A DNA stretch of 35,266 nt from Chloroflexota bacterium (GTDB taxonomy: Bacteria > Chloroflexota > Dehalococcoidia > Lucifugimonadales > Lucifugimonadaceae). The notes under the pieces are model-generated. The model was given only the letters and a program-made list of their open reading frames with translations. It made no database searches and was not told the origin of the DNA. Made by a program: the position numbers and the translations under genes. This document shows, one piece after another, positions 7,420-28,283 of the stretch (its first letter is position 1; each line of letters begins with the position of its first letter). Where the stretch lies: positions 1 through 35,266 of the forward strand of contig JABMNN010000105.1 in assembly GCA_013204545.1 (NCBI GenBank). Direction: 5' to 3'.

Positions 7420-10400
7420 CTATACCACAGCTGATCGAACCGAACCGATTCCCAGTAGCTCATGTAAGCGTATCGTGAGCTGCGAACCAGACTGAACTTT
7501 GAATGGCATTTCAAGCCGGACAATTTTATCTCCGGTTTCGATCTCAAGGATTGCGGGATCAGTGCCCGAAAACTCGACAAATAGCCTCATGATATCTTCG
7601 AGGCGGTAACGATCGTCCGCAGCATCACCAGTTTCTTTTACGCGAACCAATACGGAACCAGTTTTGGCATCAGTGTGATTCATATCGGTCGGAGCTACGA
7701 ATTCAGTTGTCAGTGGCGTTCCCTCATTGATTGGCTCAGTAATGTTCTGAACCGGGTTTTCGTAAGGCTGAGTCGGCATTTCGTTGATCTGGGCAGCAGT
7801 CTTTGAAGGCCGACCGGTGATGGGAATATGCTGCACAGGGTCATTCAATACCGGATGTGGTTCACTCGCCTCATTGAACCCTGTTCTGGCTTTCGAAGCC
7901 GGTTCGTTGTTCACACCGTCGACATGGGATACAGTTTGACCTTCTGCTTTGAGTTGATATTCGGTTGCTGTTTCAACTGAAAGTGAGACTCGCCCAAATC
8001 GTTCCCGTATTTCACCTGAAACCGAAACAAAATTCCCGTTCTCCCAAAAAGTCGGAGTTTGCTCAAGCACGTTTGGCCAGACGACCAATTCGATGTTTCC
8101 ATCGAGCAAAGTGAGATTGAGAGATAAGAACTTGTCACCGCGTTTAGTGGTTAGTTCACGTACATCGTTGACCTGTCCAAGTGCTGCCCGTTTTTGACCT
8201 GACAATTCTGGTGTGATGTCTGAGGCGAAAACTATGATGTTGTCGGGCTGCATCCGCATTTCTCGTGTGAATGGGCTTTGAGTTAGCTCGACTCCGAGTA
8301 GGTCTCGCTCCCAGATCACGCGCTCTTGGTCGGTAGTGTCATCAGCACCCGAGATTTCAATCTCAATCATCGGTGCCGGAACCGATTCGCCAAGCATGTC
8401 GAACATCGAAGTTTGCCCCGACTCGCGTAGCTTGGTTTGGCGCTGGATTGTTGCGATGATTCGGTCGACAGACTCGAGGAGATTACCTCGTCCGCCGAAC
8501 TCGTCGAAAGCTCCTACACGAATCAGGCTTTCGAGCGTTCGACGGTTTAGAGACTTTGAGTCAACTCTGCGGCAAATATCTTCGAGGTCTTTGAACCTCC
8601 CAGCCGCCTCGCGTATTTCGACAAGTGTGTCGATGGCCCCTACTCCGACGTTTTTAACTGCAGCCATTCCAAATCGAATAGCGTCATTGCCATCGGCATC
8701 TCGTTCGATCGTGAATCCGGATCTTGAATAGTTGATACTAGGCGGTTTTACTGCCAATTTGAGGCGAGTCGTCTCTCGAATGGCTTGACCCACTTTTTCT
8801 GGATTTCCAGATGCGGAGTTGAGTACTGCAGCCAAGTATTCAGTTGGATAGTTGGCTTTGAAATAAGCTGTCCAGTACGCGATGTAGGCGTAGGACACGG
8901 CGTGTGCCTTATTGAATCCGTACCCAGCGAACGGTTCCATAAGCTCGAAAACAGTGTCGGCCTGTTGTTCTGTATAACCCTTTGCGAGCGCACCTTTAGT
9001 GAACTTTTCGTGCTCAGCAGCCATTACTGATGCGTTCTTTTTACCCATCGCTTTGCGGAGAATATCGGCCTCGCCAAGCGTGTAGCCACCGAATGCCTGA
9101 GCGATCAGCATCACCTGATCTTGGTAGACCAAGACACCGTAGGTAGGTTCAAGAAGCTCACGAAGATCGTCGTGCGGATATGAAATTTCGGCTCGCCCAT
9201 GCTTAGCCTCAATGAAAGTTCCGATATGTTCCATTGGGCCTGGTCGATAGAGCGCGATCATCGCTGCAAGGTCATTGATCGTAGTCGGCTTGAGCTGCTT
9301 AATGTTCTTCCGCATTCCCTCGGATTCGAGTTGGAATACACCGAACGTATCGCCTTCACCCAGAATGTCGAACGCTTTCGAATCGTCGATCGGAACGTCG
9401 TAGACGCCCATATGCTCGCCGGTGGTGTCGGCGATCAGCTTCACGCACTGGTCGAGAATCGAGAGGTTGGCGAGACCTAAGAAATCCATTTTAAGCAAAC
9501 CTACGTCGGCGACGTGGTGCATCGAGTATTGGGTCGTCGGGCTCGAATCTTCCTTTCCACTCGTCGAGCGTTGCAACGGGACGTAGTCGGTAAGCGGCTT
9601 TTCAGAAATAACCACAGCGGCAGCGTGGGTACTTGCGTGACGTACGGAACCTTCGACACGAATTGCCATATCTATTAGCTCTCGTGCGTCAGGGTTACGG
9701 CTAATTTCCGCCCTCATTTCGGGCGATTCGTTGATGGCATCTTTCAACTTGATGTTGAGTGTGAGTGGAACCATCTTGGCGAGTTTGTCGCTTAGGTCGA
9801 GCGGTAAAGCGAGTGCTCTCGCCGTATCACGAATGGCGGCTTTTGCACCTAGCGTACCAAACGTGATGATCTGGGCTACGTGCTCACGACCGTAGTGATC
9901 GATACAGTACTTGATCACTTCTTCTCGACGATCATCGGCGAAGTCCATGTCAATATCAGGCATCTCTCGACGCTCAATGTTGAGGAATCGCTCGAAGAAT
10001 AGGTCAGCCTCGACAGGGTCGATCTGTGTAACTTCTAGACAATAAAGTACTAGGCTTGCTGCAGCCGATCCACGTACGGCAGACAGAATGCCACGTTCGT
10101 TTACGAAATTGAATATGTCCCAACAAACGAGGAAGTAATCGGAGAATTTCGTCTCTTCGATAATCGCCAGCTCGTACTCAAGTCGTTTGAGTACTTCTTC
10201 ACTCGGATTATCGAATCGCTTCTTGAGTCCTTCATCGCAAAGTTCCCTCAGATAATCCATAGATGGTCTGTTCTGGGGAGTTGAGTAGCGTGGGACAAAA
10301 GTTTGCCCAAATTCGATATCTAATTCACATGATTCAGCAATTTTGACTGTGTTAGCCAACGCTTCTGGCAGGTGAGACCACTCTGAGTACATTTCCGTGG

Positions 10401-24223: not shown

Positions 24224-25369
24224 TTACCAGTTCGTGTGTGAACCATCGGAGCGATGTGGGTGCGGAGCCTCCCAGAACGCAAATGGCTCAGTGAGCTTGC
24301 TTTCATCGACATCCACACCGAGACCAGGTTTGTCTGGTACGACATATCCGCTGCCCGTGAACTCAACCTGTTCAGTGAAGACACTGCGGTCAGGGTCTTG
24401 TGCACGCGACATGTTAACTTCGAGCCACGCGAAGTTTGGCACGGCTGCCCCGAGGTGAACTGATGCTGCAGTGCAGATCGGACCAAGTGGGTTGTGAGGC
24501 ATGAGGTCGATATAGTGTGCTTCTGCCCAACCGGCGACTTTCATAGCCTCGGTGAATCCGCCAACATTGCAAATATCGACTCTTACGTACTGGGTGATTC
24601 CACGTTCGATGTAAGGGAGGAATTGCCACTTTGATGCGAATTCTTCACCGATGGCAAATGGCACGTCGGTGAGCTTACGCAGGGCCTCATATGCCTCTGG
24701 GGACTCGTCACGGATCGGCTCTTCTAGGAAGTCGAGCGTGTGTGAAGGCATCATCTGGCAGAACGATGCTGTTTCCGCTGGTGAGAGTCGGTGATGGTAG
24801 TCAACTCCGAGAATCGCCTGATTGCCAAGAACTTCACGCGTCTTGATTAGCCACTCGGCGGAATTAGCGATCGATTCACGCGGCTCAAATAGTCCACCGC
24901 TCTGGATATCCATGTTGTCGTAGGACAGTCGGAAAGCGTTGATGCCACGTCCCATGAATTCTTTCGCCTGCTCGATCATATCTGGACCATAGGGCCCCTC
25001 CGTTGTAGCGAATACAGGGACGGTGTGTCGGTGCTTGCCTCCGAGGAGTTCATAAACCGGCACCCCAAGCTTCTTGCCTACGATGTCGTGAAATGCGAGG
25101 TCTAGAGCTGAAATAGCGGCAGTTAAAGTCCGCCCACCCTCGAAGTACTGGCTTCGGTACATCTCTTGCCAGAGAGCCCCGCGCTTCATGGGGTCTTTTC
25201 CTATTAGGAACTCTCGGTAGTGCTCAAGGATTCCTTTTACACCGAGTTCACGGCCAGAGAATCCTGACTCGCCCCAGCCGTAGATGCCCTCGTCGGTTTC
25301 GACTTTGACGAGCATCTGGTTTCGGGTGCCAACCCAAACTGCATAAGGTTTTACATCTGTAATTTTCAT
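24224..25369 (-). CDS. Enolase-superfamily sugar-acid dehydratase (copy 1)
   Basis: A 381-residue mandelate-racemase/muconate-lactonizing-type protein, closest by eye to galactonate dehydratase-like members. The N-terminal capping domain begins KITDVKPYAVWVGTRNQMLV and contains DEGIYGWGESG. The TIM barrel holds the metal ligands in LGVDYHHRLS (Asp), LDFLEEPI (Glu) and IGEEF (Glu). The His of DYHHR and of LMPHNPLGPI match acid/base positions of the galactonate dehydratases. The expected reaction is loss of water from a sugar acid to a 2-keto-3-deoxy acid in the cytoplasm, Mg-dependent; the substrate is not known. It starts at ATG 25369, 40 bp after copy 2, which is closely similar in protein and DNA sequence. 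Both end DGSHTNW. Confidence 0.91.
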   Translation of the reverse strand: MKITDVKPYAVWVGTRNQMLVKVETDEGIYGWGESGFSGRELGVKGILEHYREFLIGKDPMKRGALWQEMYRSQYFEGGRTLTAAISALDLAFHDIVGKKLGVPVYELLGGKHRHTVPVFATTEGPYGPDMIEQAKEFMGRGINAFRLSYDNMDIQSGGLFEPRESIANSAEWLIKTREVLGNQAILGVDYHHRLSPAETASFCQMMPSHTLDFLEEPIRDESPEAYEALRKLTDVPFAIGEEFASKWQFLPYIERGITQYVRVDICNVGGFTEAMKVAGWAEAHYIDLMPHNPLGPICTAASVHLGAAVPNFAWLEVNMSRAQDPDRSVFTEQVEFTGSGYVVPDKPGLGVDVDESKLTEPFAFWEAPHPHRSDGSHTNW

Positions 25370-25409
25370 ATGTTTTGCTTTTGTTAATCCGTAAATTGCG
25401 GCTAAGTGA

Positions 25410-26561
25410 TTACCAGTTAGTGTGGGATCCGTCGTTTCGCTTGAGATGAGGCATTTCTGAGTATCGGAATGGCTCGGTGAGAGAGGCTTCGTCGACTTCA
25501 ACTCCGAGTCCAGGTCTGTCGAGGACGGTCACTTTACCCGGAACAATTTCTGGCTGCACCGGGAAGACTTCCTTCGAGTAGAAGCCATTGTCTTCGCCAG
25601 CTGATTCTCTTATTTCTAACCATGAGAAATTTGCCGCTGCCATTCCCATGTGCGCAGTTGCGGCTACACAGATTGGGCCGAGCGGGTTGTGAGGCATCAG
25701 ATCGATATAGTGGGCTTCTGACCACCCAACGATTTTCATTGCTTCGGTGATTCCGCCGACGTTGCAAATGTCGACTCGGATGTAGTTTGCAAGACCTTTT
25801 TCGATGTACGGCAGGAATTGCCATTTCGAAGCGAATTCCTCTCCTAGTGCGAACGGCATTGGAGTCATAGTGCGCAGCGTTTCATATGCTTCGGGTGTTT
25901 CGTCACGAATAGGTTCTTCGAGGAAATCGAGCGTGTGAGATGGCATCATCTGGCAGAACGATGCTGTTTCAGCTACAGAGAGCCGGTGGTGAAAGTCGTA
26001 ACCGATTACCGGACGCATTCCGAGTACTTCTCGAGATTTGATGAGACCCTCTGCCGCCAGTGCGATGGCTTCGCGCGGTTCATAAGTGCCTTTGGACTCA
26101 GGCTGGTAGCTACGGTGTAGACGGAAACAGTCAAAGCCTTCTGCGATCATTCGCTGGGCAACGTCGATCATTTCTTCGGGAGAGTTACCTCCCCCGGTTG
26201 CGAAAGTCGGAACATATTCTCGATGCTTGCCTCCGAGCAGTTCGTACACGGGAACACCGAGCTTTTTGCCAACAATGTCGTAAAGAGCAATATCTATGGC
26301 TGAAATAGCCGCTGTGAGCGTTCGCCCACCCTCGAAGTACTGGCTACGATACATTTCTTGCCACAGAGCACCTCGTTGCATCGGATCTTTTCCGATCAGG
26401 AATTCTCGGTAGTGCTCGACAATACCTTTGACGCCGATTTCTCTGCTAGAAAGTCCAGATTCGCCCCATCCATATATGCCTTCATCCGTTTCCACTTTTA
26501 CCAACATTTGGTTTCGTGTGCCAACCCAGACCGGAAATGGTTTGATGTCGGTAATTCGCAT
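25410..26561 (-). CDS. Enolase-superfamily sugar-acid dehydratase (copy 2)
   Basis: A 383-residue paralogue of the next gene, sharing long identical runs such as QMLVKVETDEGIYGWGESG and GGRTLTAAISA. The metal-ligand segments are VIGYDFHHRLS, LDFLEEPI and LGEEF, and the later His is in LMPHNPLGPI. Copy 2 differs most in the segment after KHREY (the barrel entry, residues 140-175) and near ESAGEDNGFYSKEVFP. Those regions usually set substrate preference in this superfamily, so the two probably act on different acids (inference). The start is ATG 26561, with AGGGG about 10 nt upstream. An ORF start at 26648 lies in DNA used by the divergent clpS gene. The pair is probably one transcript from a promoter shared with clpS. 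Confidence 0.92.
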   Translation of the reverse strand: MRITDIKPFPVWVGTRNQMLVKVETDEGIYGWGESGLSSREIGVKGIVEHYREFLIGKDPMQRGALWQEMYRSQYFEGGRTLTAAISAIDIALYDIVGKKLGVPVYELLGGKHREYVPTFATGGGNSPEEMIDVAQRMIAEGFDCFRLHRSYQPESKGTYEPREAIALAAEGLIKSREVLGMRPVIGYDFHHRLSVAETASFCQMMPSHTLDFLEEPIRDETPEAYETLRTMTPMPFALGEEFASKWQFLPYIEKGLANYIRVDICNVGGITEAMKIVGWSEAHYIDLMPHNPLGPICVAATAHMGMAAANFSWLEIRESAGEDNGFYSKEVFPVQPEIVPGKVTVLDRPGLGVEVDEASLTEPFRYSEMPHLKRNDGSHTNW

Positions 26562-26583
26562 AAATAAAGAGCCCCTACATCGA

Positions 26584-26997
26584 GTGAATGTACTGTCGGA
26601 AAGAAATGATCGCCGAAGAAGATTGTTCTCGTCGGCAATCGGTGTCAAGGGCGATCAGATTTTCGTTGATAGTAACCCAAGCATCGAAATCGCTCTTGCC
26701 GCACAGGATACAAGGCAAATCACTACTACGGCAGAGGTGCATGAAACCTCGGATGGCAGATCCGATCGATGGGCTGTGGTGTTGTTTGATGATAGCCACC
26801 ACTCAATGGATTACGTGATCTGGGCCCTGATCAAAACAGTTCCAGAGCTTTCATCAACTGATGCAACGCTCATCATGCTTGAGGCTCACAACACCGGTAA
26901 AGGCGTGATCACGTTGTGTGGGCGGGAGCAGGCTGTGCAGATTCGCGATGCTTTACGGATTCTTCAACTTAGGTGTGAAGTAGAGCCCGGCTGGTAA
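26584..26997 (+). CDS. clpS: ClpS-like N-end rule adaptor
   Basis: About 137 residues; the last 75 form a ClpS domain. WAVVLFDDSHHSMDYVIWAL matches the ClpS core in its actinobacterial/Chloroflexi form (DD-x4-M-x-YV). IMLEAHNTGKGVI carries the conserved His of the degron pocket, and the end has AVQIRDALRILQLRCEVEPG. ClpS binds N-degron substrates and delivers them to ClpA/ClpC with ClpP in the cytoplasm. Here Phe and Asp stand where E. coli ClpS has Asn34-Asp35. The start is uncertain: GTG 26584, TTG 26623 and GTG 26737 are in frame, none with a strong ribosome-binding site. The gene runs away from the dehydratase genes, so its transcript starts in their shared promoter region. Confidence 0.78.
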   Translation: MNVLSERNDRRRRLFSSAIGVKGDQIFVDSNPSIEIALAAQDTRQITTTAEVHETSDGRSDRWAVVLFDDSHHSMDYVIWALIKTVPELSSTDATLIMLEAHNTGKGVITLCGREQAVQIRDALRILQLRCEVEPGW

Positions 26998-27344
26998 TCC
27001 TTAGCGACAGACCAATTTCATGCGTGCTTTCCAGAGAACCGGCTCGTTTGGTTAACTTCCAAAAACATACTCTTTGGTATTGGAATGGTGTGGTCTAATC
27101 TGGCTGACATGCCGAGTCGCGGGCAGTCTACCAGAGGCAATAGCGTGACTGCCCACACTACTGCTGAACCCATCGGTGCGGATGGGCGATTCCTTGAGTA
27201 TCAGTTGACAGATTGAATTGGTGATAACTATTGATATATGACCTCTGCACCGGACTGACGGACGGGTGATTGGTCATATGAATAACAAGCTTGCCATGGT
27301 TCATCTAAATCGAGAATCATGGAACGGTTGAGGAGCCAGACCAT
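26998..27344. other. Spacer upstream of the archaellin-like gene
   Basis: A 347-bp stretch without a gene. It contains a 7-bp inverted repeat (GGGCAGT 27121-27127, ACTGCCC 27148-27154) with a 20-nt loop, a possible promoter at 27205-27234, and about 100 bp of putative leader before the archaellin-like gene. Its ribosome-binding site GAGGAG is 9 nt before ATG 27345. Confidence 0.5.
27205..27234 (+). promoter_or_regulatory. Possible promoter for the archaellin-like gene
   Basis: A perfect TTGACA (27205-27210) is followed 18 nt later by TATTGA (27229-27234), a weak -10. The -35 match is good, the -10 poor. Confidence 0.3.
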
Positions 27345-28052
27345 ATGTTTAAGACAGTAACCAGAGGGACGTCGGAGCGCGGTATTACCGGGCTAGAGAC
27401 GGCGATCATCTTGATTGCATTCGTAGTTGTTGCTTCGGTGTTTGCATTCACCGTGCTTTCAACGGGTATTTTCGCGTCGGAGAGATCGAAGGAAACCATA
27501 TTCGCAGGTATTCAAGAGACCAAGAGTTCTCTCGAGCCACGTGGTGCCGTTGTTGCTTACAAAGCAGACCGCGGTGGCACGGATACCATCTACAAGGTGT
27601 CATTCATCGTTTCGAATGCCGTTGGTGGAGAGCCAGTCGACCTTACCGCCCCTTACACGGCTGACGGTTCAGCAACTGACCCCGACATTTCGAGCGGAGC
27701 TGAATACAAGACTGTTGTTTCTTACAACGACCCAAACCAGTTCATGTCAGATGTTCCGTGGACAGTTGACTGGCTCGGAACTAACAATGCTGATAATTTG
27801 CTTGAAGCCGGTGAAAAGGCTGAGATTAGCGTTTGGTTACTCATTAGAGACACCACTCAGGCGATTACTTCAGGTTCTGCTACGAGCTATTGGACTGCAG
27901 ATTCAAACGGTGCCAACGGAATTCTTTCAACCGGCACAATACTAGACAAGAACGACAAGTTCTCATTGACCTTGAGCCCTCCCGACGGTGCAACGCTGAA
28001 CGTAGAGCGAACACTTCCTGCTCGGCTCGATGCGATCATGGACTTGAAATAA
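27345..28052 (+). CDS. Archaellin-like filament subunit with class III signal peptide
   Basis: A 235-residue protein. The short N-terminus MFKTVTRGTSERG is followed by ITGLETAIILIAFVVVASVF, a long hydrophobic helix. This is a class III signal peptide: a basic leader, RG before the cut, Glu at +5 of the mature form and then about 20 hydrophobic residues. The pattern, especially G-L-E-T-A-I and a beta-rich C-terminal domain (VSFIVSNAVGG, KTVVSYNDPNQF, KAEISVWLLI), matches archaeal flagellins (archaellins) better than type IV pilins. Such genes are known from a few Chloroflexota. It would be cut by a FlaK/PilD-like peptidase and polymerised outside the membrane. No ATPase or membrane platform gene lies nearby. 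GAGGAG stands 9 nt before ATG 27345, and the gene is followed by a strong terminator. Confidence 0.82.
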   Translation: MFKTVTRGTSERGITGLETAIILIAFVVVASVFAFTVLSTGIFASERSKETIFAGIQETKSSLEPRGAVVAYKADRGGTDTIYKVSFIVSNAVGGEPVDLTAPYTADGSATDPDISSGAEYKTVVSYNDPNQFMSDVPWTVDWLGTNNADNLLEAGEKAEISVWLLIRDTTQAITSGSATSYWTADSNGANGILSTGTILDKNDKFSLTLSPPDGATLNVERTLPARLDAIMDLK

Positions 28053-28128
28053 ATCCAGTTTGACTTGGACCCAGATTAGGATTCCTAACCAATCCAAATT
28101 CGTCCCCCCAGTTTCCAAATCTTCTAAT

Positions 28129-28164
28129 AAAGAGTCCGCTCTCAGCCCCGAGAGTGGACTCTTT
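28129..28164 (+). terminator. Intrinsic terminator after the archaellin-like gene
   Basis: A 15-bp stem: AAAGAGTCC-G-CTCTC (28129-28143) pairs with GAGAG-T-GGACTCTTT (28150-28164), one G-U pair, loop AGCCCC, followed by ATTGTT. It lies 77 bp after the stop. Confidence 0.88.
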
Positions 28165-28283
28165 ATTGTTGTTCGAGCATGTATTGGGTTCGTACCGCTA
28201 CTGATAGGAAACGTACGATGGCTTTCGCGCGCTTTAATAATTCAGAACCCATAGAGTCTCTGATACGGCGTAGTGATTACAAA

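Follow-up and report, generated by a model that had tools for sequence, protein, structure and literature searches.

Archaellum genes in Chloroflexota

A functional bacterial archaellum has been described in Litorilinea aerophila, where arlB shares a single locus with the machinery, and archaellum machinery has been reported in 243 of 3,780 Chloroflexota genomes (Sivabalasarma et al. 2025, PMC12488501), a count that does not bear out the statement in an earlier note on the DNA studied here that such genes have been reported from only a few members of the phylum. For the genus of Candidatus Lucifugimonas (SAR202), Lim et al. (2023, PMC10444878) described six tandem flaB genes, flaGFHIJ, six scattered flaB genes and a FlaK candidate; scattered archaellins together with machinery are thus already published for this bacterial group, and the scattered arrangement is not as unusual as the note had supposed. 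The passages of that paper on flaB concern a different species and do not treat the scattered copies, or their selection or decay, singly. In haloarchaea, some archaellins have been reported to be encoded, or transcribed, separately from the fla operon (PMC4187195; PMC6528647), and two archaellins of Haloarcula have been described as ecoparalogues (PMC6528647).

We analysed a window of 35,266 nucleotides (assembly GCA_013204545.1, contig JABMNN010000105.1, to which the coordinates below refer) from a congener of Candidatus Lucifugimonas marina, and found that the gene at 27345-28052 appears to encode a true subunit of the archaeal-type swimming filament of a marine SAR202 bacterium. It is dispersed, unlike arlB of L. 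aerophila, and resembles the separately encoded or transcribed haloarchaeal archaellins in arrangement, although those belong to archaea and are present in fewer copies. Our analysis adds the grouping of this gene with the second gene of a tandem array, its purifying selection and its co-occurrence with the machinery; in the literature searched, mostly open-access papers without their supplements, we saw no description of dispersed archaellins decaying.

The window gene encodes an archaellin

The forward-strand open reading frame at 27345-28052, with an ATG start and a TAA stop, encodes 235 amino acids, and its profile, sequence, alignment and structure matches identify it as an archaellin (arlB/flaB-type) gene. 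The protein matched the Pfam family PF01917 (Arch_flagellin) at 81.2 bits (cut-off 29.5, E = 1.4e-22), covering profile positions 1-161 of 162, and NCBIfam TIGR02537, the N-terminal domain common to archaellin/type IV pilin, at 31.8 bits (cut-off 20); no bacterial pilin family was among its Pfam or NCBIfam profile matches. The best solved relative by sequence was the L. aerophila archaellin (9i5h, E = 2.6e-36); archaeal flagellins came next. A class III signal peptide of 13 residues (27345-27383, forward strand) is predicted to be cut between G13 and I14 (MFKTVTRGTSERG / ITGLETAIILIAF), and the 9i5h chain starts at the aligned Ile. In the hydrophobic helix that follows the predicted cut, residue 5 of the mature protein is Glu, which was invariant across an alignment of 48 rows (A1, comprising 42 of the 64 references and six sequences from other genera of the family).

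With this alignment, AlphaFold2 modelled the mature protein (pLDDT 85.4) as a 46-residue N-terminal helix (mature residues 2-47, 27387-27524, forward strand), expected to lie in the filament core and with a pLDDT of only about 57 over residues 31-50, and a C-terminal beta-rich domain (27525-28049, forward strand), so that the long helix and beta-sandwich of the archaellin fold were both present in the model. In a structural search of the PDB, all 17 matches at E<=0.001 were archaellins and 9i5h came first (E = 7.3e-15, TM 0.56/0.65), the moderate TM-scores perhaps reflecting the low pLDDT at the end of the helix. No pilin was among the best 20 structural matches, and the first pilus (8fk7) ranked 41 of the 50 listed, with E = 0.14. 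On the basis of the two profiles and the structural matches, we rejected a type IV pilin or a non-filament protein. The earlier note had read the protein correctly, as an archaellin-type subunit with a class III signal peptide, Glu at +5 and a beta-rich C-terminal domain; in the structural comparison with archaellins and type IV pilins that it had proposed, the lead went to archaellins and not to the pilins or non-filament proteins that it had named as contrary outcomes.

The L. aerophila ArlB is the best solved relative by both sequence and fold, with 39% identity in the structural alignment, although the mature window protein is longer (222 vs 183 residues). The beta-rich domain contains an acidic motif (mature D137, E141 and E144) that, by eye, aligns with the similar acidic stretch holding the reported metal site of L. 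aerophila ArlB, and the window archaellin may also bind metal.

Further archaellins and the machinery in the same genome

The draft genome G000, of which the window is contig 97, comprises 2.95 Mb in 134 contigs and is estimated as 92% complete with 3.24% contamination. In agreement with the earlier note, the window's contig gave no match to a motor ATPase, an ArlJ-type protein or a leader peptidase, and all such matches were on other contigs. The description of the archaellin as a lone gene is true of this contig only, and the isolation that was read from it was wrong. A search with the window protein revealed eight archaellin-like genes at E<=1.4e-15, counting its own: a tandem group of three on C42, of which one is truncated at the contig end, single genes on C134, C132 and C71, and a divergent gene on C52, with 33% identity to the window protein. 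In addition, C131 starts with a 25-residue archaellin tail (E = 0.02), and C6 has a weak match (E = 0.5). The divergent C52 protein (L018:8210-8929) has a VAIEVAI N-terminus and scored 20.2 bits with PF01917, below the cut-off; of the 12 congeners with archaellins, 9 have one copy of this type.

An arl cluster containing arlH, arlI and arlJ was located on C131. ArlI scored 623.3 against a curated cut-off of 550 (NF058587), with the FlaI ATPase as its best solved relative, and ArlH scored 260.1 against 194 (PRK06067), with flagella-related protein H as its best solved relative, whereas the best match of ArlJ, PRK06041 at 392.8, was below its cut-off of 570. The ArlG-like protein matched PF01917 exactly at the cut-off and ArlG at 30.3 bits, under the cut-off of 110, and the ArlF-like protein was very weak (14 bits vs 28.4). 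Two open reading frames after the archaellin tail occupy the place of arlC/D/E in other clusters and gave no match to such families. Three open reading frames follow arlJ (L013:7432-10751), namely a sensor-kinase-like one, a response regulator with a LuxR-type domain (9144-9824) and a regulator-like one, the first and last named by eye, and these may control the archaellum.

A single A24 leader peptidase, above the cut-off, is encoded on C47, and its GWGD motif presumably conforms to the GxGD rule of A24 peptidases. The same protein (L019:8199-8954) also matched the bacterial A24 N-terminal domain just above the cut-off (24.6 vs 23), unlike the archaeal-like PibD reported for SAR202 members (Sivabalasarma et al. 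2025, PMC12488501). The ArlI, ArlJ, ArlH and peptidase for which the earlier note had recommended a search are thus all encoded in this genome, with ArlI and ArlH above and ArlJ below the curated cut-offs, and the absence of a processing peptidase, which it had listed as evidence to the contrary, was not observed. A gene without a machine was rejected on the ground of the C131 cluster; the tandem archaellins on C42 and the peptidase on C47 likewise contradict the implied absence of a machine, and the presence of motor genes and leader peptidase in the same genome favours an archaellum. T2SSE matches were found on C112, C131 and C96, with C112 carrying a separate type IV pilus-like locus with a T2SSE-family ATPase (416 bits) and pilin-like and PilC-like open reading frames (by eye).

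Orthologues, phylogeny and selection

The complete chromosome of JH1073 (Candidatus Lucifugimonas marina) contains a syntenic orthologue 92% identical to the window gene. We took G013 to be this strain; it gave 13 archaellin matches, six tandem, six dispersed (including the orthologue) and one divergent, in keeping with the scattered flaB genes of Lim et al. A scan of named genomes showed relatives in several Chloroflexi MAGs as well. All remaining matches within the genus were fetched, and the loci of matches outside it were examined in part. At all 15 loci examined (8 + 7 from two sets, with genomes partly the same), the orthologue has enolase-superfamily and ClpS-like genes on one side and, in most of them, RRM-like or RraA-like genes on the other (names by eye). 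Intact orthologues with conserved flanks were present at this locus in six genomes.

In a tree of 64 frames, from which frames with stops, frames shorter than 220 aa and L108 (without the searched N-terminal motif) were left out and in which a doubtful long-branch row (L084) and a copy truncated by the end of its contig (L014) were kept, the six intact orthologues formed one clade (support 100/100), and this clade joined the second tandem-array gene with moderate support (88/96). Several other dispersed archaellins also formed clades spanning several genomes, suggesting that dispersal probably preceded these species. Pairwise comparison of the intact orthologues gave dN/dS of 0.031-0.091 for 14 pairs out of 15; dS was high and near saturation, and saturated in the remaining pair. 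The window archaellin is under purifying selection.

Apparent joint loss of the gene and the machinery

Among 19 congeneric genomes, the orthologue was intact in six (G000, G005, G009, G012, G013 and G014) and frame-broken, at three different places, in three (G004, G008 and G015). G001 retained a short remnant at the site, G007 had a short match near a contig end, and in five genomes (G002, G006, G011, G017 and G018) the flanks were close together with the gene gone; the site was uncovered in G010 and G016, and the ClpS-like flank was not found in G003. Archaellins were detected in 12 of the 19 (E<=1e-10), arlI in five, arlJ in six (one partial) and an A24 peptidase in ten, broken or truncated in three of these; in a wider set of 60 genomes, the corresponding numbers were 20 for archaellin, 8 for arlI and 9 for arlJ. 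The orthologue was found intact in all six congeners in which arlI or arlJ was detected (for G012, the evidence is a partial arlJ where a contig starts) and in none of the other 13. The peptidase was broken or truncated in all three genomes with a frame-broken orthologue. These counts do not amount to a significance test, as the genomes are drafts and the congeners share ancestry and are not independent, and since 18 of the 19 are in at least 20 contigs, an absence can reflect assembly loss. The joint decay ties the isolated window gene to the archaellum without an experiment.

The association is not strict. G017, in which neither arlI nor arlJ was found, has tandem archaellins together with an intact peptidase, but its orthologue site is empty, showing that the gene can be lost without loss of the array; the assembly may lack the arl cluster, since this array sits at the end of a contig. 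Furthermore, other dispersed archaellins were open in genomes where arlI/arlJ were not found (one in G007 and two in G008), as was the divergent C52-type archaellin in G004 and G015, and these weaken a strict rule linking gene and machinery. The C52-type frame stays open in the latter two despite their broken or truncated peptidase, suggesting a possible different role for this type.

Upstream sequences and terminator-like hairpin

Stretches upstream of the window gene were conserved among the six intact orthologues. A ribosome-binding-site-like sequence, TTGAGGAG (27328-27335, forward strand), was exact in all six and was also seen before some array copies. Comparison of the orthologues revealed a conserved block of 16 bases, TAACTATTGATATATG (27225-27240, forward strand), which may be a promoter or control site; it had 0-3 mismatches in the intact orthologues and 1-4 in the three broken ones, against at least 5 upstream of the other archaellins compared. 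A further block of 11 bases, GAACCCATCGG (27166-27176, forward strand), also a possible control site, was exact in five of the six, with 3 mismatches in G009, but is weakly specific because some paralogues reach 2-3 mismatches. With three words from the window, no upstream word common to all archaellin genes emerged.

Downstream, an intrinsic-terminator-like hairpin (28125-28168, forward strand) has a 19-bp stem, with a folding energy, computed for the window sequence, of -29.9 kcal/mol (z = -9.9); its arms are visible by eye in the aligned orthologues, and it was missing from the output of a simple terminator scan. The earlier note had placed the gene between a possible promoter and a strong terminator. 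The folding result upholds a strong terminator-like hairpin, whereas a scan for sigma-70-like promoters did no better than chance (2 found vs a mean of 1.6 in shuffles). No known RNA family was found near the gene (Rfam, gathering thresholds); five tRNAs lie at 338-1210. The window gene may be under separate control.

Proposed role and alternative explanations

We consider it highly probable that the window gene, taking the reading as a whole, is a dispersed archaellin paralogue of the archaellum of a SAR202 bacterium of the Candidatus Lucifugimonas genus, serving as an accessory or alternative subunit. The gene would have arisen by duplication from the tandem arlB array, as its grouping with the second array gene suggests, and would now be transcribed on its own; the signal peptide would be cut by the leader peptidase encoded on C47, and the ArlH/ArlI/ArlJ machine of C131 would then incorporate the subunit, which would contribute a share of the filament. 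Against this, microscopy showed no archaella on SAR202 isolates, and non-motility is part of their description (Lim et al. 2023, PMC10444878). We suggest only tentatively that the dispersed archaellins are separately regulated and functionally distinct subunits (ecoparalogues), by which the make-up of the archaellum is changed with conditions; the basis for this is the window copy's own upstream block, not found upstream of the other copies compared.

The gene may instead be a spare copy without a distinct role, providing redundant dosage and drifting towards loss. Its absence from G017, its frame-broken, remnant or deleted state in other congeners and the archaella unseen in cultured SAR202 (Lim et al. 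2023, PMC10444878) would agree with such a copy, but the low dN/dS over six lineages, the gene's own upstream block and terminator and its stable syntenic place make this unlikely. Less probable by far is an archaellin-derived subunit of a separate pilus, built by the PilB/PilC-type system of C112 and not by ArlI/ArlJ, for which the pilus-like locus itself and the dispersed archaellins open where arlI/arlJ were not found could be cited; against it, nearly all array copies seen have the same mature N-terminus (ITGLETAIILIAFVVVASV), the gene is disrupted or missing in genomes in which no arl genes turned up, and archaellins lead the structural matches, far ahead of the 8fk7 pilus. The draft state of the assembly and its contamination estimate might point to an archaeal contig or a chance reading frame, a proposal to which we give almost no credence: the strong PF01917 match and the purifying selection speak against it, the flanking genes are syntenic in the complete JH1073 chromosome and other congeners, and the orthologue in that chromosome already led us to reject contamination. 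In our view the window gene most probably encodes an accessory filament subunit and is transcribed separately. The finding fits the published view that archaella entered bacteria as a working system; the aftermath may have been an expansion of the subunit gene family and its dispersal in marine SAR202 bacteria, and the archaellum system, peptidase included, seems to have decayed or to be missing in part of one genus.

Neighbouring genes

Upstream of the archaellin, a ClpS-like open reading frame (26428-26997, by eye) and the enolase-superfamily gene on the opposite strand at 25410-26648 overlap at the start of the latter. Relatives show the same overlap, and internal stops in the matched stretch of some of them suggest a later true start for the ClpS-like frame. 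Two enolase-superfamily genes (by eye) lie in tandem at 24224-26648, and three at the corresponding loci L048, L053 and L064, which agrees with a report of 80 enolase-superfamily genes in SAR202 isolates (Lim et al. 2023, PMC10444878).
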